Notes under the pieces: model-generated | Told to the model about the DNA's origin: nothing | What the model saw: only the letters and a program-made list of their open reading frames with translations | Database searches by the model: none | NCBI GenBank assembly: GCA_905478775.1 | Contig: CAJQKB010000062.1 | Span: forward strand, 1-57,416 | From: an uncultured Opitutales bacterium | Lineage (GTDB): Bacteria; Verrucomicrobiota; Verrucomicrobiia; Opitutales; Seribacteraceae | Length of the DNA: 57,416 nucleotides | Reading direction: 5' to 3' | In this document: positions 2 through 27,400 of the stretch, one piece after another | How the letters are laid out: every line of letters begins with the position of its first letter | How positions within the stretch are numbered: position 1 is the first letter of the stretch | Program-made: the position numbers and the translations under genes

Positions 2-460
2 AAGGTCGCTTCATTATCTTTTTGGATCAATCCTGAAAGTTCAGACTTTCACCTTTTTAGTTTCGATGGGATTGCCCCGGAATTGTCGCTTTCATTACGA
101 AAGCAGCGCCCACTTTTCTCGATGAGTGGTTTGAATCAACAATCTTTACCCGGTACTTCGGGAGATGAGTTTTGGGCGAATGGATATCTTCCATTAAATC
201 AATGGTCGCACCTTGTCTTCACTTACAGTTTAGAAAATCGGAGAGTTCGCTTTTACCTAAATGGAGCCTTTGATAGCGAAGCTAGTTTTGCCAATAGTCA
301 AATCTTTCCACTTGCTCAAGCTTTTCGACTCGGACCACAGGACGGTATTGAATCGAGCTTGACGGAAGGTAAAGTGGATGACTTTAGAATTTATCATGTT
401 GAATTAAGCACATCGGAAATCTCAGGGATTTATGGTGGGGGTAACGGAGATTTTTATAAT
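2..460 (+). other. LamG domain a1 (left edge cut by window)
   Basis: The frame reads SLSFWINPE before the first possible start codon, then NQWSHLVFTY, FYLNGAFD and DDFRIYHVEL, the usual strand order of a bacterial LamG/concanavalin A-like jelly roll. It closes with the linker GGGNGDF, which recurs after other LamG copies in this protein (near 7315, 28395 and 30645). Confidence 0.8.
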
Positions 461-3400: not shown

Positions 3401-6400
3401 GATTTTTACCTCGGTCCGAATTTAAACCAGGTCATTCTCGAAGGGGTTAATTCACTTTCCATTGTTAGTGATGGTAATGTAAGTATTGGCAAAAGTTTGT
3501 CTGGTTCCCAAGTTCTTGGCTCGGCTCATGTTCCTGGTGGAACTCTGCAGGATGGACATGATGCCTACTATGCGGATGATCCCGCTAAGGGGGTTCGGGT
3601 GGGGCTCGGACGATTGGGAGGTTTTGGAGGAGCTCAGGGTCCTGGTAAGGGCTTGAGTTTAGGCGGCACTGGTGCCGGTGGACTTTCTGGTGGTGGTGGT
3701 TCTCATTCTGGCGAAGGAGGTCCGGGTGCGTCGGGGCCATCGGGGATTTCCTACGGATCAGGTGCCTTGGATGTTTTGATAGGCGGGTCAGGAGGAGGCA
3801 TGGGTAATCTTGGAGAAGCGGCAGCCGGTGGAGGAGCGATTGAAATAATTTCAGCCGGCGATTTGAAGATCCGACCTGGTGTTTTGATCGCAATGAACGG
3901 AGGTTCTGTGTTGGTTAATAAAAATCAGGGAGCCTATTTTTCGGGAGGTGCTGGATCGGGAGGTTCGGTTCGTTTGGTAGGAGCCAGTATTTCTAATCTT
4001 GGAGTTATTGAAGCGGAGGGAGGTGACGGTTCCGGTCAGGATTCACGGGAACCGGGAGCCCGTTTTTTGTCGAATGCCGGGGGTGCTGGTGGAGGCGGAC
4101 GGGTGGCATTTATCTCTGATGGCTTGATTCAACGCGGAACTGTTAAGGTAAACGGAGGAATTGGCAATGGTGACGGCTTTTCGGGTTTTTCTGGCTCCGT
4201 ATTTGAAGGAATTAAAACACTCTCATCGCCTGTCAATCTTGTCCTTACAGAGGGAACTTTAATTTTAGACACCGGAGGTGCATGGACACATACTTCTGGT
4301 TTGAAAGGAAATGGAATCATCCGTCGTAGTTATGTTGATGTAGTAGGCAAACGGTACGGTTTTGGGGTTTGTTCCTTCACATTTAACAATTTTTCGCTTG
4401 GTAATGGTGTAACCGTGGTAGTGCAAGGCGGGAATTCCCTGGAGTTAGTGGTAGAAGGAAATGCCACGATTAACACAACTATATCCCTGAACGGTCAGAG
4501 TGGATTACTGGGAACTTATTCTGGGCGGGCAGGTTCGGGAGGATGGTCATCCGGTCGTGGTCTTCGCAACACCGATTTATTTGCCAACATTCATTTTGCC
4601 CTTAATGGGCAAGGGCCTGGAGGCGGAAGAGGTTATGAGATTGGTAAGTCAAATGGTGGTGGAAGTTACGGAGGTGTTGGTTCAGGTGGCTTGAATGGTG
4701 GAGTTGCAGGAGTAGTGTACGGAGACGACTCTATTACCAACCTAATCGGTGGTTCTGGTGGTGGCCATTCGTTAACCGGTTCGGGAAATGCCGGCGGTGG
4801 TGGTGGAGCAGTAAGTTTTCAAGTAACTGGAAGTATTTTAATTGATTCAAACGGAACAATCTCGGTACGTGGTGGAGATGGACAGCCGAACGGAGATGGT
4901 TCAGGAGCGGCGGGGTCCGGAGGGGCGATACGGATAGAAGCGGCTTCAATTACAAATAACGGTTTACTCGACGCACGGGGTGGAGATGCTACTGGAAATT
5001 CTTCATTGGCTGGTGCGGGTGGTGGTGGAAGAATTTCTCTTCTTACCTCAGGCAGTTTAACCGAAGGAACGGTTCTTTTAACCGGGGGACAAAACAAATC
5101 TATTATTTCAAGCAACTACCGGGCCAGTGATTTAGTTGGCCATTGGACATTAGATGAGAATCAATCCACGACTATTGCCAGTAATGTTACGGGTAATGCT
5201 TTGCTCAATGGTACAATCGATGGCAATCCCCAGAGAGTTACCGGCGTGAAGGGAGGGGCGTTTGCATTTGATGGTAATGATGATCGAATTTTTGTGGGCA
5301 ATAATTCGGGGCTTGAACTTGGCCAGTACACCGTTTCACTCTGGATCTATCCGGAAAAGAATGATGAGGGCTTTACCGGAGTGTTTGGAAGGAGCGGAAG
5401 AAATTATGCGATTTGGCTTGGTGATTCGGACCATGCAACTCGCCCATTTATCCATCACCGATTTGGGGAAGCAGAGAATTCGAACGAAGGTGTGAGCAAC
5501 TTCAATCTAAGCGGATGGAACCGCTGGTATCATATTGCCTGTTCGAACGGCGGCATTGGGGGTGTGGCAAGAACTTATGTTGATGGTACTTTTATATCCG
5601 ATAATCAGCGTTACGAGCGACGGGTAATGGGCGATTTAATCCGAAACCAAACAGCCCCATTAAATATTGGGGTGGATCCGGTCAATCAAGGTTCGATCAA
5701 TCAGTATTTTTTAGGAAGAATGGATGATATTCGCCTTTACAATGTGCCCCTTGGTTCAGAGGATGTATTCCATCTTTATCGGGGAGATTCAGGGCTATTA
5801 GATTATCAAGCCCCCCGAAACGAAGCCCTTCGCGCCGGAACTGGGGTATTGGTCAAGATTACCTCCCCCGCCCTGCCCGCGATCGCACCCCCTTCCCTCA
5901 CCTACGGGAGCGAAATCATCAGTTTGGACTTAGGACAAGCAAGCGGGTTAACTTATTCAGTATCTGGATTACCCGCAGGAATTTCTAATCAAATTCTGTT
6001 TTCTCCTTCAGACATTCGAGGAGTGGCAGCCTGGTACCAAGCCGATGAAAACAACAGTTTTAGTTTATATTCAGATCTTTCTTATGAAAGAAATGATTCG
6101 GTTGCAGTTGCAGATCAGCTCGCCGCTTATTCGTTTAATGAGAGTAATCAAAGTCTAACTTTTGATGAATCCGGAAACGGACACCATGGAAGTTTTATCG
6201 GTGATATCTCCAGAATTTCGGCAAAGTTTAACGGTGGCCTTCACTTTGACGGTTTGAATGATGCGCTTGTTTTACCCAAGATCGAACACCTAGATAGTGG
6301 TTCTGCTTTTACAATTTCAATGTGGTTCAAGCGATCGAGTGATATTCAGGATAATCTGACCGCTCATTCAATTTCTAATGTCTTGTTCGCTCAGGCCAGT

Positions 6401-9400
6401 GCTGATTTTAATGATAATTTTGAACTGGGAACCACTGGGTCAGAGATCAAGCTTTATCTGGATAATGGTAGTGACCTTGTATATACGACTAATGATGCCA
6501 ATATTTCCAACAATACTTGGCACCACTTATCCGTTACTTATGGAGAAGGTCTCAATGTCTATCTAGATGGATCGCCCGCTTACATAAGTGGTTGGGCGAC
6601 CTCTCACTTGACTGGAGATAGCGATTCAGGAATTTCGAACACGCACACTTACACCTGTGCAGTCAATGTGAATGGAGCGACAAAAACAGTAAATGGAGTG
6701 CCGTTTACAGGTACTAATGCAACTTCGGGTACCAATTGGTCTATTACAAGTGGTTTTAATCTTACGCACAATAGTAATACCTCGACTGTAACTGGGCAGA
6801 TTGGTGATATTTTAGGTAATGGTTTTCGATTTAACGGAGATCCTCAAAAAATTAAAATTACTGGCTTAACACCGGGTGAGAATTACACCTTTGCCCTCTA
6901 CAGTCAGTCTTGGGGCGGGGGCGAGCGAAATTGCACATTAAGCAGTTCCGCCCTAGCTCAAACGATAATGGTAAATCAGGATCAATTCAATTCATCGGGG
7001 CAAGATGGTTTATTGGTTGAATGTTCTTACTGTGCCCCAGGAACCGAAGTTGAATTTACCATTGACCCTGTTGTCGGAAGTACTACTTGGCACTTGTATG
7101 CATTTAGTAATCGTGAAGGAAAAAGTGAGCTAATTACAAATACAACTGCATTTGCAACTAGCGGTCCGCTTGACTCCTCGTCAGACTCTCCAGTCTCGCT
7201 CGGACTGTCCAGACCGTATTCCGACCAGACAGGTGACTTTAACGGAAGTATAGACGAACTAAGAATTTTTAGCCGTGAATTGAACTCGAGTGAAGTAGCG
7301 ACTTTGTACAATGGCGGAAATGGAGATTTTAACGGTTCTACTCAAACCAAACAGGAGACGGGGAATATTCTTGCCTGGAATGATTTCTCCGGTAGTGAAA
7401 GACACGCCATTTCACCTAGCTATGTCACATCGCCTAGCAGGGTTGTGGATTTCCAGACTGGAAAAACGATGGTTTCCCTGGGTTTTGGAAAAACTCTTCA
7501 AATTGGGGGAGCCGTTTCGATGCCAATGACTGTGGTTATGGTGGGGCGTGAAAAAGGAAGTTTATTTGCCAACCGGGAATTATTTACCAATCAGGGTTGG
7601 CGTCTTGTAAATAACGGTAATTGGGTACTTAGAAGGTGGGACGATAATAATCCAAATATTGCCAGTTCCGCTCCCTCCAACCTTCTGACAATGGTGGGGT
7701 GGACATTTGACCGGTACGGCTACGAATTGCGGATTAACGGAACCACTGCTGGAACCAGCACATCTAATAATTGGCATCCCGATGTCTTTTTTGACCGAAT
7801 TAATTCTGAAAGCTCTCTCCTTATTGGAGACCTGTTTTTACTGCCCCGTCCACTGGAAGTGAACGAAAGAGAAAAATTGGAGGGTTATTTTTCCCATAAG
7901 TGGAATTTAAATGAACTTTTACCCTCTGGACATCCCTATCTCGGAGAACCTCCTGTTGGCGGTGAGGGATTAGTGCTCTCCGGTACACCTCAGTTGGCTG
8001 GCAGTTTTACTGTGAATATAAATGCTTCCAATCAATGGGGTTCAGTCGATCGAAATTTTACTTTGGAGGTCAACGCAACCGCACCTCAGATACAGACTCA
8101 GTCTGCACTTCAGGTCGGTTCAAGTTCCGCCAGGTTACAGGGAGACTTATTGGAGAATGGTGGAGAAGCGGTACAGATATCCTTTGAATACGGAACTGAC
8201 CTTGCCAACCTAGATCAAAACAGTACTCAGTTTGCTGTTTCAGATAAAGGAATTGCATCTCAACTACTTACCGGCTTGACCCCGGGGACGACTTATTTTT
8301 ATCGGGCCTGGGCGGCGAATACTGCCGGTACTTCAAACGGCAATTCAATTTCCAAGTTACCCCTGTTTGACTGGCCACTGCAAGGTATTACCGGTTCCAC
8401 AATTACTGACCTGACAGGTAGGGCAATGGGGACAGTGGGCGGAAATGCGGTAGCCTTTGTTGACCCGAGTCGGGGAAACACAGTTCGATTCGACGGACAG
8501 GACGATTATATAACTTTTGGCGATCTCGATGAAATGGATTCTCCTAATCAGTTTACTTTATCATTATGGTTTAAAAAAGAGCAGGACATTACCGGACAGC
8601 CTACGAATCATGGAATTGATAATGTTTTGGTCGCACAGTCGAGCAGTGCATCCAATGACAATTTCGAAATTGGTACTCAAGGCTCAATGGTTGAGGTTTA
8701 CATCGATTCCGGTTTAGATGGAGACCTGGATACGGCGGTAAGTGTGGAAGCAGGAATTTCTCTTAACAACTGGACTCACCTTGCCTTGGTGTACGGTTCC
8801 GAAATGAGTTTGTTTATCAATGGTGTGAAAATTACAACTTGGACCCAGTACAATGGTAAATTGGACAGTAGTGTAACCTCGCCATTATGCCTTGGTATTG
8901 CCCGACCCAATTCCAATCTTTGGGGTGAATTTAAGGGATTAATGCAAGATGTGAAAATTTATGATTCGGAGCTTTCTCCGATTGAGATCGCGATTCTTGC
9001 TGAACTTGGTTCATTTCAAAGTTTTACCACAGGCACTCAGTCTGCCCCCCCACTTGTTGAGGTAAGGCCTGCTTCGAATATCACTGAGAGCAATGCAACC
9101 ATTCATTATGAGCTCCTATCTTATGATGAAGCCCAACCCGAAATTATTATTTATTGGGGGCCGGTTGATCAGGGCGAAAACGAGGGGTTGTGGGAGAATA
9201 ATCAAAGTCTTGGACAGCAGGGAATTGGCGAAGGTAATGTTACGATCAGTGGTTTCCTTCCCGGTGATATGATTTACTACCGGGCCCGGGCAAAGGGGCC
9301 TACCTACGGTGACTGGTCTGATCAATTTGGTCAGCTGCGTATGGTGGACAAGCCCAGTGTGTCAATACTCTCCGCTAATCAATTGACTCTTACTTCGGCG

Positions 9401-12400
9401 ACCCTTCGTGGAAGAGTGGACGGTAATGGTGGGGTTTCTCAAACCGTGTTATTGTCAGAGCCCAAAGTCTCCAAGGATTTAATTGCTCATTGGAGGTTCG
9501 ATGAAGGATCGGGGCAGGAAGCGTATGATTCAACCGGTTTTACTCCTGCCGCTCAACTTTTTGATGGGGTTTCCTGGGTAGAAGGAATGGGAGGGCAATG
9601 GAAAAAAGCTCTTCGTTTTGATGGTAGTTCGCTTGCATACCTTAAAGCGGGTTCTTTCCGAATTGAGGGTGATATGAGTTTTTCAGGTTGGGCGTACAAG
9701 GAAAATCTTGGAATTTATCAGGGTGTATTTGACTTTGGTAATGGTACAGATGATCAAAATCTATTTTTCTCCAACCGGTGGAAAACAAGTGAAGCTGAAT
9801 GGACAATTCGTCGCGGTGCGAACACACGCAGCCTGTATGCAACTAATTTCTGGACACTTAACGAGTGGCAGCATGTGGTGGCTACGGTTAATGAGGCTGG
9901 GGTGATGAAACTGTACCGGAATGGTGAGCTTAAAGGATCCACTCTCGGGCATTTGCCAGCTTCGACCACCCGATCCAATCACTATGTAGGGAGGAATAGT
10001 CGAACAGATAGTGAATATTTTTACGGAATGATGGATGATTTGCGTGTATACGACCGTGCAATTAGTCCCGAAGAGGTCAGTCAAGTATACACTGGAGATC
10101 TTCAAGTTTATTCAGTCCTAGGGGGACAGAATCCGACCGTGACAATTTATTGGGGAGATGAGGACGCGGGACAGACCATAGATGTAAATTCATCCTCCAG
10201 TAGCAGTTGGGATGGGAGTGTAAACCTCGGAGTTCTACCCACGGGTGAATTTTCTACTCCACTCTCCGGATTAGCGGGTGGCAATACATATTTCTATCGT
10301 GTAACCGCTCGAAATGCAGCGGGAAGTACAGTTCTCAGTGAAGTGTCGAGTTTTTCAACTGGTTCCTTTGGATTTAAATCTGATTCATTTGCCCAGGGGC
10401 AACTTCTTCTGTGGCTTGACTCAACAGATATTAATGGGGACGGTAATCTTTCGAATGAACCTTTTGGTGGAAGAGTTGATAAATGGCGGGATAAGTCAGG
10501 TGCAAACCGACATGCGGGAAATGGGAATGGTCCTGAGCTTCGAATCAATAGTTGGAATTCGTTAACAACCTTAAAATTTGACGGCCAGAGTAATTACCTG
10601 AGAGTCTCTGATTCGAATGCTTTTAATCTAGGCGAAGATTTAACAATCTTCGTAGTGGCAAAAGGAGATACCCTCCAAGATTGGAGATCAATTCTTTCGA
10701 AAAGAGGTGAAGATAATGTGGGTTGGCAATTCCGAAAGGACAACACCGATTTTGCCACCTTTACTGTTCGTGGAACATCTGGAAATGACGGTGAGCGGGG
10801 AAGTACTCTTATTAATGGCGTTCCCCATGTTTGGTCGATGCGTAAGACTTCACTAAAACGAACTCAATGGGCGGACGGAAATCTAGAATATCATATTGAT
10901 GACAGGGGCTCAATTCCTGACACCAACAGTGATGTTGTAATAGCCGGACGGGATCAGGACGGTATTACTTCTCTCAGTGGGGTTGAGATTGGGGAAATTC
11001 TGGTCTACGATCAGGCGTTGAGTGACAGTGATGTTTCGAAAATGGAGGGACACTTAGCTCATAAATGGGGATTGCTCGCCAACATGCCGGGTGTTCATTC
11101 TTACAAATCAGAAACTCCTCAATTTGAAAACCGGCCTGAAATTTTGCTTAGTGACCGTTATTCAATCAAAAAAGATTCCAATTTGAGTATGCCGATGCAG
11201 GTAAATCGGGTAGCCAGTAACTTTCTTGCCAGCGGATTGCCCATCGGATTGGATATAAATTCTACCACGGGGTTGATATACGGTGTGCCCTCGGTAGCAG
11301 GTTCGTTTACTGCCCGCGTGGAAGCGTCCAATCAATCAGGTACATTCTCGAAAGATATTCTTTTCACGGTCACCGATTTTTCTGATTGGAAGTACTCCTC
11401 TTCTATAAGTTTCCCTGGTTACACAGGTTCCTCTCTCCTTAATGACTTCCCGGTTTATCTTGAATTGAATTCGTCGCTGTCTGGGTTCAGCTACGATCAA
11501 TTTGCTTCTCCATTTGGATACGACCTCCGTTTTTTGGGGAATAATGGATCCGAAGAGCTTTATTATGAACCGGTAATTTGGAACAAACAGGGAACTTCGG
11601 GTTTTTGGGTTCTTCTTTCCGCTTTTGATGAAAATAGCACGGTTCAGGCAATATGGGGTAATCCCAATGCCACCCAACAACCAAGCTATTGTAACAACGG
11701 AATTGTCTGGTCTAATTATAATGGAGTTTGGCATATGGATGGCACAGGGCTTAGTACTGTGAAGGAGTCCCGTGCGAGTGCTCATGCTACTCCTTACAAC
11801 TTTGAAACCCTTCGGGTACCAGGAGTAGTCGGTACTGCTCTTTCCTTTGATGGCGTAAATGATTATGTCGAACTACCCCTTTCGATTCACCCGCAATCGG
11901 ATGCCCGTCAACTTACTCTGTCTTTTTGGAGTTACGGTGGTTCCAATTTAAGTTCATCTTCAAGCACGACACTTCTTGAATCTGGATCCGCACAGGGACG
12001 TTCGCTTAACATTCATTTCCCAAATGCTTCCAGATTGCATTGGGATGCGGGAGGTCAGAACTCTTATGATAATACTAACCGGGAATTTTCTTCCTACAGT
12101 GGGCAATGGGATCATTGGGCATTTCAAAAGGATATAGATGAAGGGGTCATGTATGTATACCGAAATGGCCAACTTTGGCTTGATGGGTATAACCGAAGCC
12201 GTCCGTTTGACGGAGATGTGGAGAGTTTCCGTCTGGGTTCCAACCGATATGGCGGGTGGTACTGGAATGGATTATTAGACGAATTAAGAATTAGTTTTTC
12301 GATTGAATCTCCTGACTCCATACTTGCCTCCTATGAAAGTCAAAGACCTGGCGGGAATTTTTCTGCCATGCAACCAGTGATTGGCCCTCCCCTATTGATT

Positions 12401-15400
12401 AACGGACAAGTTGCGGAAGGATATGCCAACGATAGTAATCTTTCCTATCTTATTCAGGTTTTTCCCAGTGCGACGACTTTTTCTGCGGTTGGATTACCCG
12501 CGGGTATCTTATTAAATTCATCCACCGGCGAGCTTTCTGGAGTTCCATTGCAAGGTGGTACCTATAACATCACCGTTACAGCCTCTAATAATTCGGGGAA
12601 GGATCAGGGGATTTTGACTTTATCTATCGTGGAGAGGACAGGATTTACCCATCAGGTGGATTTTAATTGTTCCGCTTATTCAGGGACTACCCTGCAGGAT
12701 TTTCCCTTACTAATTCGCTTGGACCGCTCGGTCACGAACTTCAGTCTGAAGAGTTTTGCCTCCAATAATTGTAACGATCTTAGATTTTACGATCAACATG
12801 CACGTGAACTTGAATATGAAATTGATGAAATTAATGATGCTAATGGAAGCCTTTCAGTCTGGGTAAAGGCGAAGGAATTGAACTCGTCGACCTTCATCTC
12901 TGCGTATTGGGGGAATCCGACTCTTGCTCAATTCCCTCCAGTCTATTCGGGGGATGGTTCAACCTGGACCAATGGCTTCCGAGGCGTATGGCATATGCGG
13001 TCTTTCGAAGGAATTGAAGTGCTAACTGATTCGAGTGTTTATCGAAACCATGCTTATGATGATTATGGCATTGGAGATACCGGCATTGTGGGTAGTGGTC
13101 GAACATTATCGGGTGGAGTCGAGAAATTTTTACGGGTTCCATCCGCATTTTCTTTAGATGATTTACATGAGAAAAGTTTCACTTTTTCAACTTGGATAAA
13201 ATTGGATGAAGCACCTCCTTCAAAAGCAGAGGATTCTGTATATGCCAGTGGCTATCTAACCAATCCTAATGATACTTATTTTGATGATATTAATAACTTT
13301 TACACACTTACCCCGAGTGGTAGTCGAATTATGCAAACCGGACCAAGGCAGGGTCTCTATTTTGATGGGGATAACGACTTTAAGAACGGGGGGATTGGTA
13401 TTAACCGAAATGATAATTATCTCACTTTCTTTCAAGCTATTTTCACTCCCCAGGAAAGTGGTGACTACTTTTTCAGATGTGACCGCAAGGATGATTATTC
13501 CACGATCTGGCTGGATCTTGATCGGGATGGTACTTTTGAGAAAAATGGAGATCTCGGCGGTGAGAAATTAGGAGGGAATGGTAATTTTACATCTACCGCC
13601 TACCCTTTAATTTCAGGGAGTGATTATAAAATTGCAATTGCTCATGGCGAGGGTCGGGGAGGTTCAAGGATTAGGCCATGGATTAAAACACCCAGTGAAG
13701 ATTGGCAAATCATCGACCCGAGCAACCCCACACAAACGGGTATGTTTTCGGTAACCTTTGATGGTAATTTTACTAATGACATTAGCCCATACATCATTGC
13801 TAAACATGGTGTTGGCGAAAGAATTAGCCTGAGCGGAGGTAAAACGGCGGTTTTTCATGACCTGGTAGTTCAGGGCGAAATATCAGCTATCTCCCCGAGT
13901 TCCCTTTATAGTCTAAACTCGGCATGGAAACATGTGACGGTAAGCGTGGATCATCTATTAGGTGATATTAAAATATACGAAGATGGTAATTTGACTATTT
14001 CTTCCACTTTTACTGCGGGAGAATCCGCACATGCAATAAGCGGTCAGGACTGGTACTTCGGTCAAGGTTTAGTGCCCTCTTCGTTTGATGAAATGCGACT
14101 TGCGAATGTCGCTCGTTCCGCGGATTGGGTCCAAGCTTCCTACCTTAATCAGAATCCTACTTCTACGCTGCCCGTTATTTCAGCAGTCTCTGGTCTGCCC
14201 AGCTTTCGCTCACTTTCAACATTTAACTTACCCGCCGATCAACCTTTTAACCACTCAATATCGGTAACAGGATCACCACTTGTTTTTACTGCAGTTGGAT
14301 TACCCAGTGGAATTCTGCTTAGCTCGAATGATGGTAATTTGTCTGGTTCTCCTTCTGTGTCTGGTCAATTCACTTCCACGATCAGTGCCTTGTACCCGAA
14401 TGGTAACCGGGCAGATCAGCAATACCGTTTTACCATCTCTCCGAGCGCTCCGGATATTATTATTTCTATCCCTCAGGTTGTAAATTCAACTTCGCTCTCA
14501 ATCCCTTACGAAATGAATGCAACTGGAGGCGAAGACCCCATGCTTTATGTGGTTGCGGATACAATAGATCATGGCACCAATTTTTATGCGTGGTCCTATC
14601 GAAAGTCTCTCGGCAATAAGGGGCTAGGCTCTGGTACCGCAATCTTAGGTGGATTAGAACCCAACCAAAGCTATTATGTGCGATTATATGCTGAGAATTC
14701 GGCAGGTTATGACTGGACAGGGAAAGAATTCTTAATTCGCACACAGCCCAATAAGGAACACCTGCCCACGTCCCTTGCAATGTGGCTTGATGCGGCCGAC
14801 TTGGCGGGCAACGGAAGCAATACTGTAGAGGGTTTTACTGTGTCGACCTGGAATGATAAATCTGGGAAAGATCGTGATATGGCCAACCCCGTCGGTAACC
14901 CGACCATAAAACTTGAAGGTCATGGAGGGAAGCCGGTAGTTGATTTTGATGGTAAATCGCAGATGCGGACCAATTACAACTTTAGCGGTACCGATTTGAA
15001 TTTATGGAGAAATGGTGGCTATTCAGTTTTTGGAGTATCTCGTTACACTGGCGGAGATAATGAACGTGTGATCAGTTCGAGCGGACATAATTGGCTTTTA
15101 GGACATCATGGTAATCAAATTGGAAGATATTTTTTTAATGGATGGGTCGATCAAGGATTTGCCTCCGATACCAATTTCCATATTTTTGAAACCCTCCATG
15201 AGGGGCGTACTGTGAATACAAATCCCTCTGCATCAGTCTGGACAGACGGAATTGAGGGTTCTTACCGAAGCGGGGGGAAGCAGGGTTCTAGCAACTGGGA
15301 TTTTTATCCAGGGCAACTTTCGTTCGGGGCATTCGATAATTTGCGTGAAGCTTCCAAATGTCAAGTTGCAGAATTCATTATGCTGGAGGGTCTTATTAAT

Positions 15401-18400
15401 GAACAGGATCGTTTGAAAATCGAGGGTTACCTCTCTCATAAGTGGGGAATACCACTACCCTCTTCTCATCCATGGGCCAACGATGCACCGACCTACGGAG
15501 ATGTGATTCTCTCTGGCTCCACTGCTTTGATAGATACGAACCGAACTGTTGTTCCTACCATTATCAATCGATCGCCCGCTAATCTTAAAAATACGTCCGC
15601 TTCTTTGACTGGTCGTTTAGTTGATACGGGTTTGGGCATCCTTCCTATTAATCCAGCTGGGGTTGTCTCGACAAGCACTTCTACGATAGCCGGACTTTCT
15701 CCTCCTATTATTGGTGATATTAACGCATCCAATATTTCTCAAAGCAGTGCTAATTTAAGAGGAACTCTTATCTCTACTGGTGGGGAGACTCCGATTATTA
15801 CTATAGTTTGGGGAGATGAAGATCACGGATCAGATTTTAATAATCTTTCAAGTTGGGACTTTAATGAAAGCTTGGGCTACTCGACTGCGGGGCCCTTTTC
15901 AGTTTTAGTAGGAGATTTACAGGAACGAACCGTCTACTTCTTCCGCGTGGCGGTTTCTAACTCGATTGGTTCATTCATGTCACCGGATGTGGGAGTATTT
16001 GTGACAAGTTCTGTCGATCTGGTACCCCCTCAATCAATTTTATGGCTTGATGCAAATGATACATCTGCTTCAACTGGAACGTGGTTAGATACAAGTGGTA
16101 ACGGAAATCATGCCACTAAGCAGGGTAATCCTAGTGTTGTATCAAATGCTCAGAATGGGTTGTCAGTTATGAGGTATACCGGGACGAATGGCGAGTATCA
16201 CAGCTTTGCAAATTTCACTGATGTTCGAACTGTTTTCTGGGTCTTTAAAAACTCGGGTGGTTATTGGCCTCTCTTGGGAGACAATAACAGGTACCACTTC
16301 CACCCAATGAATTCGAATGATTTAGTTAATGGTAGGCATACGAGTGGGAGTGTTAAAAATGGTAATTTTGCTTTGAATGGAACTCCGGCTTCTTGGGATA
16401 CTTCAAAGCCCTCTACTATGTCGATTCTTTCGCTTCGTACATTAGGTAATGTGGAAGCTTCCAATTTCGCCAGTGACAGGAACATAAATGGTCGTTTCGG
16501 CAATGTCGATTTAGCAGAACTAATTATTTTTGATATTCCTCTTTCAGACGACCAAATCAAATATCAGGAAGGCTATCTTGCAAAAAAATGGGGGCTACAA
16601 AGTAAGTTGCCAAGTTCGCACCCACACAAACAATATTTCATGTCAGAAACACCTCAGATTACCAGTCCTAATTCTGATTCTTTAACCATTGGTCAGGCTT
16701 ACAATTTCCAAGCTTCCACTAATATTTCCGACTCGACATTTTCTGCTTACAATCTGCCAGATGGATTAACCTGCAGTCCTTCCGGTCTCATAACTGGTAC
16801 TCCAACAATCGGGGGAATTTACAAAGCTTCATTAACCGCCAAAAATTCAACTTATACTTGCCTCGGTTTTCTTACTCTGACGATTCCTGATACTGCACCT
16901 GGAATAATTGCACGTACTGCCGGAAGTATTTCTTCTACTACGGCAAATCTCATCGGAGACATTAATCATACCGGGGGCAGGGATTCGATTGTGACCGTTT
17001 ATTGGGGGGATAATGATGCAGGGACTGGTAATTGGGATCAGAATATATCGCTCGGTAGTCAGGGCAAGGGATCTGTCTCGCATTTTGTGGATGGTCTTTC
17101 ACCTTCCACTATTTACCACTACAGGTTTTCGGGTACTAATTTCAATGGGGCCACTGGTGGTGTTTCCTGGTCTAATACTGAGACATTTACAACTGACTCC
17201 AATATTTCTGTGCCGATTTTGAGTTCAATCTATTCTGTTTCAGATACTAACTTGGTCGGTGCCAAGCTGAATGCTGTATTACTAAACAATGGAGGAGATT
17301 CAAATACTTCAGTTACTTTTTATTGGGGGGAAAGTGATGGCGGTACAAATCCACTTGCCTGGCAGCAATCTATTGAAATTAACCAAGCTGAAGTCGGATC
17401 TGTTACTGGTCATATTAACTCGGGGCTTGGATTCCCTCGGGAGTATTATATGCGGGTGAAAGCTTCTAATGTTTTTGGGTCTACTTGGACACCCACTAGC
17501 CTATCTTTTCTTCCTCAGGCGGGGAACTCCGGTTTTACTCCGATGGATTACTCAGGCTTAAGATTATGGTTGGACGGATCCGACCTGAACGGTACAGGAC
17601 AGACTCTTGTACTCAATCCAGGGGAGTCTGTTGGGTTGATTAAGGATAAGTCAGGGCAAGGTCGAGATGCCGCTCAGACTACCCCAACTTTCCAACCGAC
17701 TTTCGTGCATGGCGCCTTGAATGGACTGCCCAATCTTCGTTTTGATGGTACGAATGATTACCTCACCTTCGAAAAGATTGAAACGATTCGTACCGTTTTT
17801 CTAGTGCTAAATCGAAAAACTGGAAATCAAGGGTTTTTATTGGGGGATGATACCGGTCATCATTTTCACAGTGCGAGTAACGCAATTTGGTCGAGCACTT
17901 GGACCCATCCTAACGTGATCAACGGATTGACTCAAATTAATGGGAATTTACGAGATGGTCTTACCAGTACCTACGACTTTAACACTCCTACCCTTATTTC
18001 TATTCGTACCAATGGCGCTGTCCGAGCATCTAATTTTTCAAAGGATCGAAATAATGAAATTTACTGGAAAGGAGACTTGGCGGAACTACTCGTTTACAAT
18101 GAATCACTCCCTACCTCTGTTTTAAGAAAAGTCGAAGGCTACTTGGCTCATAAATGGGGAATACAATCCTCTTTGGTGGGCTCTCATCCTTATCGAATTA
18201 CTGCACCCTCACGCAGTAAAAGTGCGGCGGTTACCAAGATTTATTGGGGAGGTACAGATGGCGGAGTAGATCCATCACTTTGGGATAATGTAATTGATGT
18301 GGGTGAAGTCGGAGTTGGGTTGAGGAAATTATCTGATGATGTGGCCGTATTAGCGGAGCCTCTACCGAATCAGTCAGGTGCGTCCTATGGTGTCGATCGG

Positions 18401-21400
18401 CTAGTTGATGGAGTATTACCCATGGATGGCTGGAGGAGTACTTGGACTGCTTGGTTTAAGGAGGACCCACAACTTACCTTTAATTTAGGTGCAGAAAGGT
18501 CGATGAATAAGATTCGTATTTATTTTCAGCCTTATGAACGTGCGGATGAATTAAAAGAAGTTGAAATTTGGGTGGCAGACGAAGAGATGAGTTTTTCATT
18601 ATTAAAAACGGTCCCGGGTGTAGTGGGTATAAGAGAACAGGGAGTTTTTGCCGAATATGACTTGGAGGGTATTACCACCCGTGCAATTCGCTTAGCACCT
18701 AAATTTCAAGGTTGGGGTCACCAGTGGGGGGAGGTTGAGTTTTGGGTTTACGATAGTGGAGATTTTGAGGCAAAGGTGGAGGGTTTAACCAAGGGGCAAA
18801 CTTATTATTATCGAACTTTTACTACGAATGATGGTGGTTCGCAATGGGCTCCTGATACGAACAGCTTTCAAGCCGAGGATAAAGTCGCTTATGAATCTGG
18901 GAAATTGATTATCAATACCACTTTGGGAACATGGAAGCATAGTGGTGGAGATCAAAGAAGCGGAGTGGTGTCACAAAAGAAACTTTCCGACAATATTGGC
19001 AATGAATATTTATACAAAGTATGTCGTTTCGAATTTGATGAAATTGAATTAAAAGGAAGTTTAGAGGTAGAGGTAAAGGGTTCAGCCTCCCTTGAAATTG
19101 TGGCCCGAAACGGGGATGCATTCATTGGTGTGCCAATTGCCGTTTCCGGTGAGGACGGTTCGACTTCAGACATTGGCTCATCTGGACCAGGTGGTTTTAA
19201 TGGCGGAGAAGTGGGGGGGCGTGGATTTGGGCCTGGAGGGGGATTAGGAGGGAATGCCCCAGGGGGAGGTGGCTTTGGCGGTGCTGGCGGACTTGCCACT
19301 GCGACGACCGGTCAACCCTATGCGACTGGTGGGCTGCTTGATTTTGTTGGAGGGAGTGGAGGAGGAGGCTTCCTCGTTGATTATACCGGTGGTGGCGGAG
19401 GGGGTGCATTAAAGATTGAGTCCTCTCAAACACTAACTCTCGATTCGCGTCTCTTTGCAATGGGTGGCTCCGGTATTTCTGGCTCAGGTGGCGGTTCCGG
19501 TGGTTCTCTTTATTTAAAGGCGGAAAACTTGGTTCTAACTGCTCAGTCCATTATTGATGTGTCTGGTGGTTCCAATGGTGGCGGAGCGGGTAGGATTTAC
19601 CTAGAGGGTACAAAATCTTTACTGAATCAGGGATCGGACAATTTAAGGAAATCGGGCGGACCGGGAGCTGCGCCGGGAACGGAGGGTACTCTTCGTTTTG
19701 TGCGGCCTTCTCACTTAGAGGAATTGGATTTTCGGGTTGGATCAATTGTGATTGATACCGATGTGGGGTCACTTACCCATAGTGATGGATCGATTGCTTA
19801 TGGATTAACTGAGGATTATTTGTATATTGATCAATCGGGTGCCGCTTGGCCTTATTCCGTATGTAGATTTAGGTTTACCCGAATACAGCTAGGAGGCGGA
19901 GTTGTGGTTCAACTTAAGGGAAGAAATGCATTGGCCTTGGAGGCTTATTCTGGGGACTTGATCCTGGGTGCAAATATCCGGGCTGATGGTGGAAATGCAG
20001 TCGCGAACCTCGGGGGGACAGGAATTCTTGGCGGTTATTCAGGAGTAGATGGTGCTTCTTTATACGGTTCTGGCCCCGGTGCACCGAAGTTATCTTCTTC
20101 CGTGGGACATGGTGCCGCTTATGGAGGGCATGGCTCTGGTAATGCGCGTATTTATGGAGACCGTTCTTTAGACGCTCTTCTTGGTGGAAGTTCGGGCGGT
20201 GCTTCTGATACTGCAGGTTCTGGTGCAGGAGGTGGTTCTATTTTATTGAAGGCATCCCGTGAACTCAAGATTGAGCCGAATGTTTTAATTACTGCCAATG
20301 GCGGTAATGGTTCCGGTAATGGTGCGTCTGGTTCAGGAGGAGGAGTTCGCTTAGAGGCAACAAGAGTATACAATCAGGGTAGAATTGAAGCGAAAGCGGG
20401 AAATGGGGTTCAGGTTGATGGAGATAACCAATCTCGTGGATCTTCGGGTGGGCGTGTCTCTATTATTGCCACCGCGGAGGTGACTGCTGGCGATATTGAT
20501 GTATCGGGTGAGTGGTTGAGTAACGAGGGGTCGATTTTCATAGGAGGTAGTTATCAGAACTCGAGTTTAATTGCTGAAAATGCAAAAGTTACAATTGATA
20601 CGAAAACAGGTTATTTTTCAATTGAAGGGGGAGCACATGGGGAAGGTGTATTTTCGGACCATTCCTACACTGACAGTTTAGGTCTTAACTGGAATTATGG
20701 AATTTCTACCTTTACCTTCGCTCAAGTTCGGTTGAGTGGGGATACCAATATTCTTCTTCGTGGTGATCGTTCTTTATCCGTTAAAACAGTTGCCGGGGGA
20801 GAGATCTATATTGGGTCGGACTTGCTTTTAGATGGGGGGAGTGCCTCGAATACGACTGGGTACGGTGGTCGACCAGTTTTAAATCCTTGGGCGGGGAGCA
20901 GTTCGCAAAAAATTTCCGGTAATGGCCCTGGCGGGCCTGGTACTGCAGGGAACTGGGGAGTAGGAGGAAGTTATAGTTATGGAGATGATCAAATATCAGA
21001 TCTAATGGCAGGAAGTAGTGGCTCAAGTGGCCGTTATTTTCAAGGTTCTGGTGCGGGAGGCGGTGCGATTGAACTATTGGCGGAGGGTGATCTTACTATT
21101 GCCCCTGGGGTAATAATAAGTGCGAACGGTGGCGATGGCCGTACTGACGCTAATCAGAATGATCATGGTGCCGGTGGTTCGGGGGGTGCATTGAAATTAT
21201 CAGGCAAAAATATTTACAACCAGGGCTTAGTTCGTGTACTGGGAGGAAACCGTGGAGCGGGAGGAGGACGAATCGTTATGGCCGCTCAAGGTACCATCGA
21301 TAAGGGTATAATCTCGGTGGGCTCGGGAAGTTTTAAAGAAGTGAAGCCCCCGGTTATAATCGTTCCTGAGATACTCTATCTTTCGTATCAGAGTAAAGGA

Positions 21401-24400
21401 ACACAGGTTGTTCGAAAAAATGTTTCGACTCGTCCTGCTAACCTGGTGGCATATTGGCCAATGGACGAGGGGGACGGAGAGCAGGCAGTGGATGCTATGG
21501 GGCGTTTCAACGGACAGTTAATTGGCGGCACTTCCTGGCAGAATGGTTATTTTGGTAAGGGAGTTCAGTTTAATGGTACCAATGCTTATATTTCCACCCA
21601 AGCCACTGCAGATGCACTTGGAGTGGACGGAAAAAAGCCAAGAACAATTTCTTTCTGGGTAAAGGTGGATGGTAATAATCCTCAGTCTCAACCCGGGTTT
21701 TATGGATATGGTGAGTTAGCCAATCCAAACGGAGTTAGTAAGTTCTGGGGTTTACGTAACATCAAGGATGGTGGGTACACCCAGATGATCAGTCAACATT
21801 GGGGGTGGGATCCAAGGGCTTCCCATTCTAATACCCTACTGGGTCGCTGGGCTCATTTTGCACACTGTTTTAACGGTTCGGAGGTCTCCATTTACATGGA
21901 CGGTACTCGCATTGCGAATTGGGCTCGTTCAGGAATCAGTACTGGAGTGGCTCAAACATTTCAATTTGGCCGGTGGAGAAACGATGCAAATGCTTATTTT
22001 GGAGGAATTTTGGATGAGATGAGAATCTACGACGATTCATTAAGTGAAAACGAAATCCTGCAAATTTTTGGAGGGCAGGACTTAAAGGAGGATTTGATTT
22101 ATTTGCATCACCAAGTTCAGGCTTCAGGAGATCCCACTTCCTATGATGCAAGTTTTCTGCCTAATGGTCTTAGTATTAACCAATTGAATGGAGAAATTAT
22201 TGGGCAACCTCTAGAGGTAGGAATTTTTGATTTGAATGTGACTGCCACAAATATTGCAGGAAGCGGAGTGACTCCTTTACGAATTATTGTTAATAAAACC
22301 GCCCCAGTAGTGTCCAGTGCATCCCCGCGAAATGTGACCTCTTCTTCTGCCCGTTTTTCTGCATTAGTAAGTAATGATGGCGGGGATCCCCCCACCCTTT
22401 CTTTATTTTGGGGTGATAATGACGGTGGGTCCAATATGCTGGTAAATCCTGCTGATAATATACATTGGGATAATCGAATTGATCTCAACGGAACGCACTC
22501 AGAAGGAATGGCTCATTTATATGTGGATGGATTAACTCTTGGATCCACTTACTATTACAAGTGGTTGGCATCAAACTCCGTCACATCGGGAGTGTGGAGC
22601 TTGCCTCCGCAGGAAGGAATTAAAGCATGGTGGAAGCTGGATGAATCATCTGGTACTATTGCTCTTGATCAAATAAATGGAAATACCGGTACGCTTGTTG
22701 GGGTAGATAATTCGGCACGGGTATTTGGCAAGATTGGAAATGCCATTCGATTTGCTGGAGCGGGAGAAAATATCATTACAAAAGGTTTCAAGGGAGTTTC
22801 GGGAGATAAATCTCGCACCTTATCTTTTTGGATGAAGACAACACAGGCAAATGGTGGACTCGTAAATTGGGGAGAAAATGCGGATGGGCAGAATTGGGCG
22901 GTTTCTTTGAATAATGGATCTCTCAATCTTGATATTGGAGGTTCGCGATTAACCGGAAGTACAATTTTAAATAATAATGCATGGCACCATATTGCTTTAG
23001 TCTTACCGAATGGCTCCAACAGTGCCACCGATGTTTTTATGTATGTCGATGGTAATAAAGAAAACCCAATATTTGCTCATGATTTTGCATTTCCTTCAGG
23101 AATTGGAGGGCTTCAGCTTTGGTTAGATGCGAGTGATTTAACTTCAGCAGAAGCACTTTGGAATGACAAAAGTGGAAATAATAACCATGCAACCAAAAAT
23201 GGTAATCCTGGTATTGTAACCAATGGGATAAACGGTCATTCAATCATGCGCTACAGCGGAACAAATGGAGAATATCATTCTTTTAACCGAATTTCAGATA
23301 TCCGTACCGTCTTCTGGGTTTTTAAGCGTAATTCAGGTGGTTGGTTCCTTCTTGGAGATACCAGTACCTATCATTTTCACTCCAACGGAGGATCTCTATT
23401 TCACGGTACTCACGCACATGTAGGGATCAAGACGGGTTCTTCATTTGCTATAAACGGTGCACCTTACGATATTTACGGGAGCTGGCCAACCGATATTTCT
23501 ATTGCCTCATTAGTGACCAGCCAGAATGTTCGGGCCAATAATTTTTCAAATGATCGAAATATTGGAGGTCGATATGCCAATGGTGATTTAGGGGAATTAC
23601 TTATATTTAACACCGCTCTTTCTGCCGCTGATGTTAATCGAGTGTATTCCTACTTAAGCTTCAAGTGGGGATTGATGGGGGTAAATACTTCTGCACAAAA
23701 TGATTTTCAAGTGGGTACTGATAGTAGTGGTAATCATTTCAATGGAATAATTGATGAAATTCGACTGTATGATCATTCTCTTTCAACCGAAGAGGTAAAT
23801 AGTATCGCGTTGAATGGTACCATGAAGTTCCAAACTTCAAGCGTTGCCCTTCCTCCTGTAGTCGAAATTACCGCTCTTTCTGCGGAGTCTAATGGCTCAG
23901 TAATCATCACTGGTAATTTGATTAGCAAGGATTCGAACCTTCCTACTGTCCGGGTTTATTACGGGAATGAAAATGCAGGCTTTGATCTTTCCGCATGGGA
24001 CAACTGGGTGGATGTGTCATCTGGTAGTCCATTAGCCCTTGGCGAATTTAATGCATCTGTTACTGGGCTCAATCCAGGCGAGACCTACTACTTTAGAACA
24101 TTTGCATCTAGTGTGGATGGTGAAGACTGGTCAAGTGGAGACCCTCAGGTGATCGATGACCTGTTGTCATTTTGGAGGTTGGATGAGGAGTCAGGAATAT
24201 ATGCTTATGATTCCACTTATCCTGCCAATACGGCTCGCTTCGAGGGCACTGATAATAACGCCACCCGTCCATCAGGGTATAATGCGCAGGGACTGTTTTT
24301 TGATGGGGGTACAAATTCCTTAAGTCTGGACTTTAATTCAACCGGTTATTTGGAAAATTCCTTCGAGGGGCGGTCCTTAAGTTTCCGTTTTAAACCGACT

Positions 24401-27400
24401 GCAAAGGTGTATGCCGGTCCCGCCCTTACCCAATATACTGATTTGGCCGCTTATTTTCCTTTTGATGAAGGGAGTGGTGCGAGTGCCAGTGATTTAAGCA
24501 CCAATCAATTAACTGGAACTGGAAGTGGTGGTTTCTCATGGATTGCAGGTAATGCCGGACAGGCGATCAGTTTGGACGGAGTGGATGATTCACTTTCGCT
24601 GGAAACGCAGGGAGTGTTAAAGGAACTCCATAAAAAATCCTATTCCATTTCGCTTTGGGTAAACCCGGCAACGGGAGCGATTGGTAAGTACAGTCCGGGG
24701 CAGTTAAATACTTTTGGATTCAAAGTCCCAATGAGTGAGGCTTATTTTTCTAGTACAGATGTCTTGTTTTCTCTTACACCAAGTGGGTCTAGTTTGCTCA
24801 CCGGCGGCCCGAGTGGAACAGGCTTAGCATTTGATAACGATGAGCACTTTGCAAATGCCGGTATTGGCATTAATCAAAATGACAATTATATGTCTCTCTT
24901 TACTGGTGCTTTCCGGGCAAAAGAACCAGGTACCTACACTTTTGAGACCAGGGGGAATGATAATCGAGGCGTACTATGGATCGACTTAGACCAGGATGGA
25001 ATTTTTGAGGTGACAGGTGATCTGGGCAGTGAAAAAATCCTCGATGCTGCTTATCCTGCTATTGATAGCAAGGGAGTCCAATTGGTATCAGGGTATTATT
25101 CAATGGCGTTGGCTCATGCTGAAGCAACAGGAGGATCATCAATTCAACTGTATTTTTCTACTCCAAGCTCTGCTTCCGGACCTACCTCACTGAGCTTGGT
25201 TAATCCCTCTGCCGATACTGATTTATTTCTCACCGAAAATACCTACAGTGTAGTGAAGAGAGGTCCTTTCGGTTTAAGGTTGGATGGAAATAATTCCCTT
25301 TCATATACTCATGCAACTGCGAGTCAAAGAGTATCTGTCTCATCTGTGCTTTCTCTTACTCCTTCAAGTTGGACTCATGTTGGGGTGGTGGTGGACTATA
25401 ATTCTTCCACACTTAAACTGTACCAAAATGGTGAACTTGTTTCGCAAAACTCTTTACCCGAAGACAGTCCGCTCAATTTGTTAGCTTCAGAAACTTGGGA
25501 AGTGGGGGGGACTAGTCGTATCTCACAAGACTATTTTAATGGAGCGATTGATGATTTGCGCTTTTATAAGAGTGCGCTAAGTGATTCCGACATAAATGCC
25601 ACTTTTAACGATGACTTGAGTGGGGCCGTCCCAGCAGGATATTCCAATCAAATGTTATATGATGAAGGTACATCAAACTCTGGGATTGGCGTCGTCTTGG
25701 AGGGCAATACATTAAAGGCGAAGATTGGAGAGAATGGATCATTCGCTGAGGTGTCAAGCAATGTGAATGTGAAAGATGATCAATGGCATCATGCCATTAT
25801 TACATTTGGAGATTCTCCTAAAACTTTAAAACTTTACTTGGACGGTATATTGCAGGGTACCCCCACTCTGTTAGATTATTCGATGGTTTCATTGCATGCG
25901 GAACCCCCCTCCTTTGGTTCGACTTCAGGGTCTAGTGTCTATTCAGGTTTTGGAAACTATAAGGGTCTCCTTGATGAACTGAGGATTTATGATCGTGGTC
26001 TTGTTGAAGGTGATGTTAATTTAATTTTCAACGGGGATTCTCTGAACCAGGGATTTCTAGAATTTCGTGCCATCGAAAAACCCGTCGTTTTAACCAAGTC
26101 TGCTCTTGGAGTCTTGCCTACTCAGGCGACTTTGCGTGCCGAGGTAATATCGATTGGTGGGGAGATTACGACCGTGCAGACTGTGACCGATCAATCTTTT
26201 AAAACTGATACCGTCCCAGGACTTTCCGCTTGGTATTCTGCCCAAGATATGAACGGCGATAATGTGGAGGATCTCGGGCAAGTTCTTTCTAATGGTGATA
26301 TTGTTTCTAGTTGGAGAGACGGGTCGGGCAAGCAAAGAAATATGCTTAATACTTCTGGGAATCCGAGATTTTATATATCAGCATTAAAAGGTAAACCAGT
26401 TATCAGTCTGGATGGGGATGATATGATTTGGGGTGAAACGAACTTTGATTTTCTTACCAATAGTGGATACAGCATGGTCTCTGTTGCCCGCTACACAGGG
26501 GGGGCAAATAATCGAGTCATTTCCTCTCGAACCAGGAATTGGTTGTTCGGGTTTCACGGCGGCCTTGTTTCCAGGTGGCATGCTGAAGGCTGGATCAGTA
26601 CCGCGGGGCCTTCGGATAATAATTGGCACCTTCATTTGGGAAGCATTGAGGCAAAGGGTGGAAACCCAAGAGCATCTTTCTGGCGTGATGGAGAGCAGAT
26701 CGCCTTCAATAATAGAGGGTCAAACAATACTAATTTTGCTCCAGGGGTTTTACAATTCGGTGGGTATGGAACAAATCGTGAACGTTCGACCTGTGAAATT
26801 GCTGAAGTGATGGTTTTTGACCGTGAACTTAATCAGGGAGAAAGGTCAAGGTTGGAGGGGTATCTTGCTCATAAATGGCGCATCACAGAAGAAGTCTTAC
26901 CCTCCAGTCACCCCTATATATCTTCAAATCCTTTTGGAGGCATTCAGGAAAATACTGTAGTACAATCTGTGGGCGGAGATAATCCCGTTGTTAAAATATT
27001 CTGGGGAGATGAATGGATTGACTCGAATACGACTTTGGTTGATGAGAACGATAACTCGAAGTGGGATTATGTTGTAGATATAAATGGAGGAGGTCCCGTA
27101 ACATTAGGAACCTACGATATCCTGGTTCAAAACTTATCCATTAATACGCCTTATTTCTACAGAGCTTATGCAGAAAATTTAGGTGGTGGTAGTTGGGCAA
27201 CAGATGTCCAAACTTTTACTGCCAGTGATACTCGGTTCACAAAGTATACTATGGATGGTCTTGTCCTTTGGTTAGATGCCATGGATACCGACGGGGATAA
27301 TCAGAGTGATAGCATATTGGAGGGCAACTCAGTTCCTCTATGGGTCGATAAGTCTGAGAGTTCAAAAAATGCTTTACAATCTGTACCCAATGCAATGCCA

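Follow-up and report, generated by a model that had tools for sequence, protein, structure and literature searches.

Domains nested within domains in a giant, putative surface protein of marine Opitutales

Bacterial surface proteins that carry He_PIG, Fn3, cadherin and LamG_3 domains in tandem are usually described as linear strings. In this study, we analyzed a giant protein of an uncultured Opitutales bacterium that shares with them the domain repertoire, the size class and the likely role, but much of whose chain is branched by nesting: complete domains (guests) sit inside other domains (hosts), the guests being separable units and the host halves staying complementary. Its gene lies in the window, that is, the whole stretch of 57,416 nucleotides that was analyzed, which makes up all of contig C62, one of the 185 contigs of a 2.78-Mb genome. 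In-frame insertion of whole beta-sandwich or jelly-roll domains into surface loops of domains already present is most probably how the architecture grew, end-to-end addition not being the only route, and editing of this kind still goes on between species.

The closest described systems are the nested A1-B1-C-B2-A2 insertions catalogued in ECOD, which include a six-level stack in the SI3 region of cyanobacterial RNA polymerase RpoC2 (Schaeffer et al. 2026, PMC13114784). Nesting is recursive in both cases, in that a guest itself hosts, and depth is similar or greater in the ECOD case; four-deep nesting is therefore not new in itself, and of the unusual density and depth proposed in an earlier note on this DNA, only the density stands. 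The two systems differ in that SI3 is one region of an essential enzyme and consists largely of single hybrid motifs, whereas the giant protein is probably extracellular and holds 15 nestings of unrelated domain kinds, with guests that are present, absent or swapped between species. Likewise, the insertion-only families detailed in that catalogue have one host kind each, against at least four for the guest that we call X. A literature search for nested insertion in giant and surface proteins found no description of this family; nor did we find described (i) such a nesting density in one protein, (ii) between-species guest polymorphism, (iii) one loop reused by unrelated guests, or (iv) a promiscuous, always-nested guest in one bacterial family.

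Host-guest sites of the giant protein

The gene reads as follows.

2..33040, + strand: giant protein gene; 11,012 codons present, no stop inside, open at the contig 5′ end

Its orthologues are collinear, 13.4 to 14.8 thousand amino acids (aa) long and begin with a hydrophobic signal-like stretch, so that the N-terminal ∼3 thousand or more residues are absent from the open reading frame (ORF) of the window. The protein is probably secreted, and is probably a glycan-binding surface protein of Opitutales that are marine by the record names of the orthologues. Its Pfam matches are LamG_3, He_PIG, DUF2341, Fn3-like (Pur_ac_phosph_N), F5/8 type C and MBG. We use LGA for ordinary LamG_3 units, which exceed the curated cut-off of Laminin_G_3 (PF13385; 27.6), and LGB for a second jelly-roll type with the motif LWLDASD...HKWGL, which scores 18.6 to 36.6 bits against the same cut-off, varying by copy, and has the jelly-roll fold by model. 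The F5/8 type C guest scores 28.7 bits (PF00754, cut-off 28.2), and the guest called PA14-like bears only that name because its 18.6 bits to PA14 (PF07691) are below the cut-off of 24.

The window ORF holds 15 host-guest pairs, from ∼989 (site 1) to ∼27232, among them two stacks four domains deep (three guests), He_PIG>LGB>LGA>X and Fn3>LGA>LGA>PA14-like. The earlier note had proposed at least nine interruptions between 5857 and 27230, nested up to four deep in He_PIG, Fn3, Ig and LamG hosts. The depth was confirmed and the count exceeded, though four of the 15 are weak on their own evidence; the end of the range holds, whereas the sites begin upstream of it, and its "Ig" hosts are He_PIG-like and one host is DUF2341. 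Ten pairs are well supported, a grade given for (i) an orthologous empty site (sites 2, 2c, 3 and 8b), (ii) a gain, once the guest is excised, of 15 to 43 bits over the better half in a hidden Markov model (HMM) of the host (2, 2c, 4, 6, 8b, 9b, 9c and 10), or (iii) a structure model (2b and 9c). Site 5, which is paralogous to 9c and gains Pfam score on excision, is moderate. The weak pairs, with gains of <5 bits, are sites 1, 7, 8 and 9, in the last two cases as regards the outermost Fn3. In the list, coordinates are those of the interrupted host.

989..1996, + strand: site 1, DUF2341 host, LGB guest 1082-1726; weak, only the N-terminal strand precedes the guest; 70.7 versus 68.3 bits
5888..8086, + strand: site 2, He_PIG-like host, guest stack 5993-7963 (He_PIG>LGB); empty orthologues, own-HMM gain, model confidence (predicted local distance difference test, pLDDT)
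6002..7945, + strand: site 2b, LGB (ConA-like jelly roll) split by LamG (LGA) guest 6119-7354; AlphaFold match to 5hon_A
6113..7327, + strand: site 2c, LamG (LGA) split by guest X 6590-7153; empty orthologues, HMM gains
8081..9058, + strand: site 3, Fn3 split by LamG (LGA) guest 8348-9013; empty in G040/G041
9350..10372, + strand: site 4, Fn3 split by LamG (LGA) guest 9434-10126; own-HMM gain
12974..14152, + strand: site 5, LamG split by PA14-like guest 13220-13789; Pfam LamG_3 gain
18212..18883, + strand: site 6, Fn3 split by F5/8 type C (discoidin) guest 18320-18751; own-HMM gain, F5_F8_type_C match
21344..22306, + strand: site 7, He_PIG, LamG guest 21437-22093; weak; small Pfam gain, none with own HMM
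22301..23857, + strand: site 8, Fn3, LamG guest 22601-23821 between the last two strands; weak by score, 117.4 versus 112.7 bits
22613..23821, + strand: site 8b, LamG (LGA) split by LGB guest 23090-23698; recurrent insertion loop; empty in five orthologues
23849..26083, + strand: site 9, Fn3, outer LamG guest 24137-26038; weak, 56.5 versus 55.1 bits; last strand low-confidence in the model
24155..26041, + strand: site 9b, outer LamG (LGA) split by inner LamG (LGA) 24428-25621; own-HMM gain
24440..25621, + strand: site 9c, inner LamG (LGA) split by PA14-like guest 24686-25243; own-HMM gain, model
26078..27232, + strand: site 10, Fn3 split by LGB guest 26162-26977; own-HMM gain

At sites 8 and 9, only the last ∼10-residue strand of the host lies beyond the guest; site 3 has the same geometry plus an empty orthologue. 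At the Fn3 sites 4 (9410-9470 with 10110-10160) and 10 (26130-26190 with 26945-27000), the host strand around GG...TV appears on both sides of the guest (GGVSQTV/GGQNPTV and GGEITTV/GGDNPVV), like a short host duplication flanking it.

Site occupancy in orthologues and closure of the hosts

Relatives were compared by a search with the site-2 region, by end-to-end alignments and by a site-by-site occupancy table. The match to the site-2 region breaks exactly at X in most orthologues, and site 2c holds 188 to 189 aa in four contigs (the window included) against 0 to 3 aa in 13 orthologous contigs. In place of the whole 657-aa LGB/LGA/X stack in the He_PIG domain of site 2, the genomes G040 and G041 (two species) have 0 or −1 aa, and both have 0 aa in place of the LamG in the Fn3 of site 3. 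At site 8b, the LGB measures ∼200 to 270 aa in the seven contigs that have it, and five others (G015, G024, G003, G007 and L094) show 6 aa in its place. Extra guests are found as well: a 191-aa domain within the site-3 LamG of G026, X and LGB within the site-4 LamG of G040/G041, and, at site 9 of the same two genomes, LGB within the outer LamG and within the PA14-like domain, so that one stack there is five domains deep (Fn3>LGA>LGA>PA14-like>LGB). The N-terminal part of the relatives has LamG or LGB nested in LamG, and the LamG loops hit more than once include those after S-WF, before W-HH, after YLDG and near DxSGNGxxG. At one and the same loop, some orthologues thus have the whole guest, others none and others a different one, and the clean empty orthologous sites are decisive proof of the nesting.

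Two further observations concern occupancy. The region 15557-17620 (residues 5186-5873) is a turnover hot zone in which orthologues differ by 80 to 630 residues, with LGB inside LGB (G003 and G007), X inside LGB (G016 and G026) and a truncated Fn3 remnant. The binned genome G014 has X-filled and X-empty copies of the orthologous region on two contigs (C100 and C190; L036 and L037) with 65% aa identity, either a paralogue or a mixed bin.

Most of these genomes are draft bins with many contigs, in which assembly chimeras between repeats could in principle have joined unrelated domains. We regard this as extremely unlikely: assemblers would not confuse the internal copies, because these share <60% aa identity and no DNA repeats; the same filled and empty states recur across independent assemblies; and G041, with its five-deep stack, and the X-empty G024 match single-cell-style record names (AH-709-B10 and AH-558-J18, the single-cell status being read from the names).

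The excision of guests, proposed as a check in the earlier note, raised the host score at most sites. The profile for a host type came from the intact copies of that domain which the protein itself contains, and candidates were scored with the guest, without it, as each half, and with the cut displaced by 15 to 45 residues. With these profiles, the excised hosts scored 43.2 bits at site 2 (He_PIG; halves 28.2/12.7), 126.5 at 2c (LGA>X; 86.7/32.6), 85.3 at 4 (Fn3; 64.4/9.1), 58.9 at 6 (Fn3>F5/8; 30.7/26.5), 87.4 at 8b (LGA>LGB; 55.0/29.7), 65.9 at 9b (LGA>LGA; 45.6/20.8), 93.9 at 9c (LGA>PA14-like; 50.9/50.0) and 58.2 at 10 (Fn3; 39.7/6.4), and the gain was <5 bits or nil at sites 1, 2b, 3, 5, 7, 8 and 9. 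By profile, the host halves make a single fold at sites 2, 2c, 4, 6, 8b, 9b and 10. The chosen cut exceeded all displaced cuts at 12 of the 15 sites; the exceptions are 2b, 9b and 9c, where a shift raised the score by 1 to 3 bits, so these junctions are exact only to tens of residues. For Pfam LamG_3, excision turned a two-piece match of 68.3 bits at 2c into a contiguous one of 85.5 bits, raised site 5 from 33.7 to 44.7 and 9c from 78.9 to 87.0, and left a contiguous match (19-150, 57.4 bits) at 9b. Pfam He_PIG (PF05345, cut-off 24) went from 27.3 (positions 34-95) to 31.8 (9-95) at site 7 and gave no match at site 2, guest in or out, where the own HMM and the empty orthologue back the host.

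Closure of the flanks, the other check that had been proposed, was examined in AlphaFold2 models made with orthologue alignments for 5849-8086 (mean pLDDT 61) and 23843-26101 (mean pLDDT 75), and the split host halves are predicted to close into single jelly rolls at 2b and 9c. In the first model, both He_PIG halves are mostly at 82 to 95 and most of the LGB right half at 80 to 95, and the LGB of site 2b (model residues 55-679) matches the continuous, 206-aa ConA-like domain 5hon_A (Z 16.4, 182 aligned). In the second, the inner LamG of site 9c (model residues 197-589) matches the same structure (Z 21.7, 191 aligned), the PA14-like guest looping out of the fold. At site 9, the final strand of the Fn3 has a pLDDT of <50, so this model does not show the outer Fn3 closing. 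LGA and LGB share only the LamG/ConA-like jelly-roll fold with such domains as domain 4 of the arabinanase AbnA (5hon) or the jelly roll of clostridial neurotoxin binding domains, and the latter matches give no hint of a toxin. The solved jelly-roll domains are continuous, whereas the LGA and LGB hosts are interrupted by ∼190 to ∼400 residues. Foldseek alignments of the whole two-region models were smeared over several domains and were not used.

These results bear on the view that the protein is a linear string grown by tandem duplication and decay, its "split halves" being degenerate partial domains that fold separately. The small score gain at the four outermost sites would fit it, and truly truncated Fn3 pieces do exist (e.g., residues ∼5186-5215). 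It is nonetheless contradicted for ten sites by scar-free empty orthologue sites, near-complete summed host profiles and modelled closed folds, and we consider it very improbable.

Guest X and the LGB guests of site 8b

X is a ∼180-aa domain with no Pfam match over cut-off (best fn3, 17.7 bits versus 25), and no significant sequence relative in the PDB. NCBIfam gave only sub-threshold matches, the best to TafC. The 42 family genomes contain 23 copies, two of them identical, and every one of the 23 is enclosed by a host, namely LamG (at two loops), LGB, several Fn3, three cadherin domains or Big_12. When the flanks of X are joined, they match Cadherin (41.5 and 44.3 bits) or fn3 (31.9 bits) contiguously; at Big_12, the contiguous match reaches 24.6 bits, just below the cut-off of 27. 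Within this bacterial family, X occurs in the nested state only; it spans several genes and at least four host folds. A second large-protein family (L096, L097, L109 and L110, other large genes in relatives) carries X inside a Big_12-like domain, and nesting is therefore not confined to one gene. Distant homologues occur in 16 of 388 genomes of the phylum, the window's own included, and are mostly linear: they come as tandem pairs, adjoin a signal-like stretch or directly precede a PEP-CTERM-like tail. A part of them lies in repeat regions, where nesting cannot be judged.

The X tree requires 11 moves among the 12 host sites, as few as that number of sites allows. Each of the three places where the giant gene carries X has its nearest relative in a different outside gene (supports 81, 98 and 85). 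X was thus not simply duplicated in place but moved between genes and hosts many times, and the differing outside relatives rule out within-gene copying as its main source. Cross-site X copies are ≤62% identical, so these insertions are old at the DNA level. Between G012 and G000, the X-bearing tract (residues ∼2160-2370) is 83 to 93% identical against 43 to 77% around it, and fourfold sites stand at 0.51 against a baseline of 0.31; such similarity, fourfold sites included, is as expected of exchange of a filled segment.

In the tree of LGB copies, vertically inherited sites group cleanly, and the 8b guests fall in separate places. Those of G000, G012 and L076 join the guest inside the PA14-like domain of G041, the window's own being sister (Shimodaira-Hasegawa-like approximate likelihood ratio test, SH-aLRT, 98) to the guest in the PA14-like domain of another genus; those of G011 and G016 group with guests that G040/G041 carry in two further LamG loops; and those of G040 and G041 stand apart, without firm placement. 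Forcing the 8b guests into one clade cost 166 log-likelihood units (approximately unbiased [AU] test, p 5e-5, on a quick tree). Judged by guest sequence, one loop holds unrelated LGB guests in different lineages. Within-gene copying is a possible source for LGB, whose best long internal pair (residues 5347-5499 and 7706-7858) has 54.5% aa identity, but copying inside the giant gene is a minor source of guests at most.

Mode of growth and its meaning

Since guests are absent without scars, other guests occur in the same loops, and guest trees follow neither tandem order nor host, repeated loop insertion, as the earlier note had supposed, is favored over tandem duplication. Several points weigh against this reading. 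In the model of 5849-8086, X and a portion of the inner LamG cannot be relied on (pLDDT <50); no convincing target-site duplication or microhomology was found at 12 junction pairs (lowest single chance frequency 0.04 among 12); the only DNA self-repeat within the giant gene is a 26-bp match; the X-negative G004 groups with the X-positive G012 in a FastTree host tree; and polarity is not proven at every site, as the insertion at 8b may be ancestral, its guests later being swapped or lost. The last two also fit a history in which the nesting is old, the empty sites arose by precise deletion and change is mainly guest loss or replacement, as does the occupancy of 8b, where both genera have guests and the five lineages without one share a linker of ∼6 residues. 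We hold this history to be unlikely, given that X at site 2c is limited to one clade and absent from all other orthologues, and that the 8b guests are not one clade, for which reason new insertions at 8b are needed anyway.

No insertion was caught fresh at the DNA level, and neither the junctions nor the internal DNA repeats carry a trace of the mechanism. An ATS/WATS repeat at the X junction, considered as a target duplication, belongs to the guest's own N-terminal motif. On the simplest account, a complete domain cassette would enter loop codons by rare but ordinary illegitimate recombination, selection would tolerate it only if in frame and with its two ends close together, and the filled alleles might then spread by homologous exchange. 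Repeated use of particular loops, the always-nested guest family and the movement of guests between genes would also suit a dedicated mobile-cassette system that moves domain-coding DNA into loop codons. Flanking duplications or a shared junction motif were not seen at the 12 junction pairs, though the events are too old to exclude either, the ten neighboring genes scanned lack a recombinase, and the cross-site X copies are as divergent as given above; such a system therefore appears highly unlikely. Scarcely less doubtful is the related idea that X- and LGB-type cassettes are loop-specialized mobile elements, carried repeatedly into the same loops and between genes by a biased DNA process beyond chance plus selection.

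The ten genes scanned lie downstream of the giant gene and are mostly housekeeping, the others being of unknown function. Between the domain clusters of the protein, 3300-5100 and 18880-21330 show a strong G skew and encode a number of long units rich in Gly (GGxGGAGG...), which may be beta-helix-like. The C-terminal tail (32700-33040), a possible sorting signal, consists of TSP3-like DSDGDG... followed by ...KFLRVRV and is similar across orthologues.

As a rule, domain insertion is deduced afterwards from single structures, and here the empty, filled and swapped orthologous sites make it possible to follow which loops accept guests, at what rate, from where, and in what order stacks are built. 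A giant surface protein can be badly misrepresented by a linear list of its domains, and the loops that tolerate insertion, together with the insertion-specialized domain X, are natural examples for protein engineering. Since each guest hangs from its host by two linkers, repeated nesting would replace the linear chain of binding domains by a branched display, and ligand sites could gain in number and in spacing with no end-to-end lengthening of the protein.

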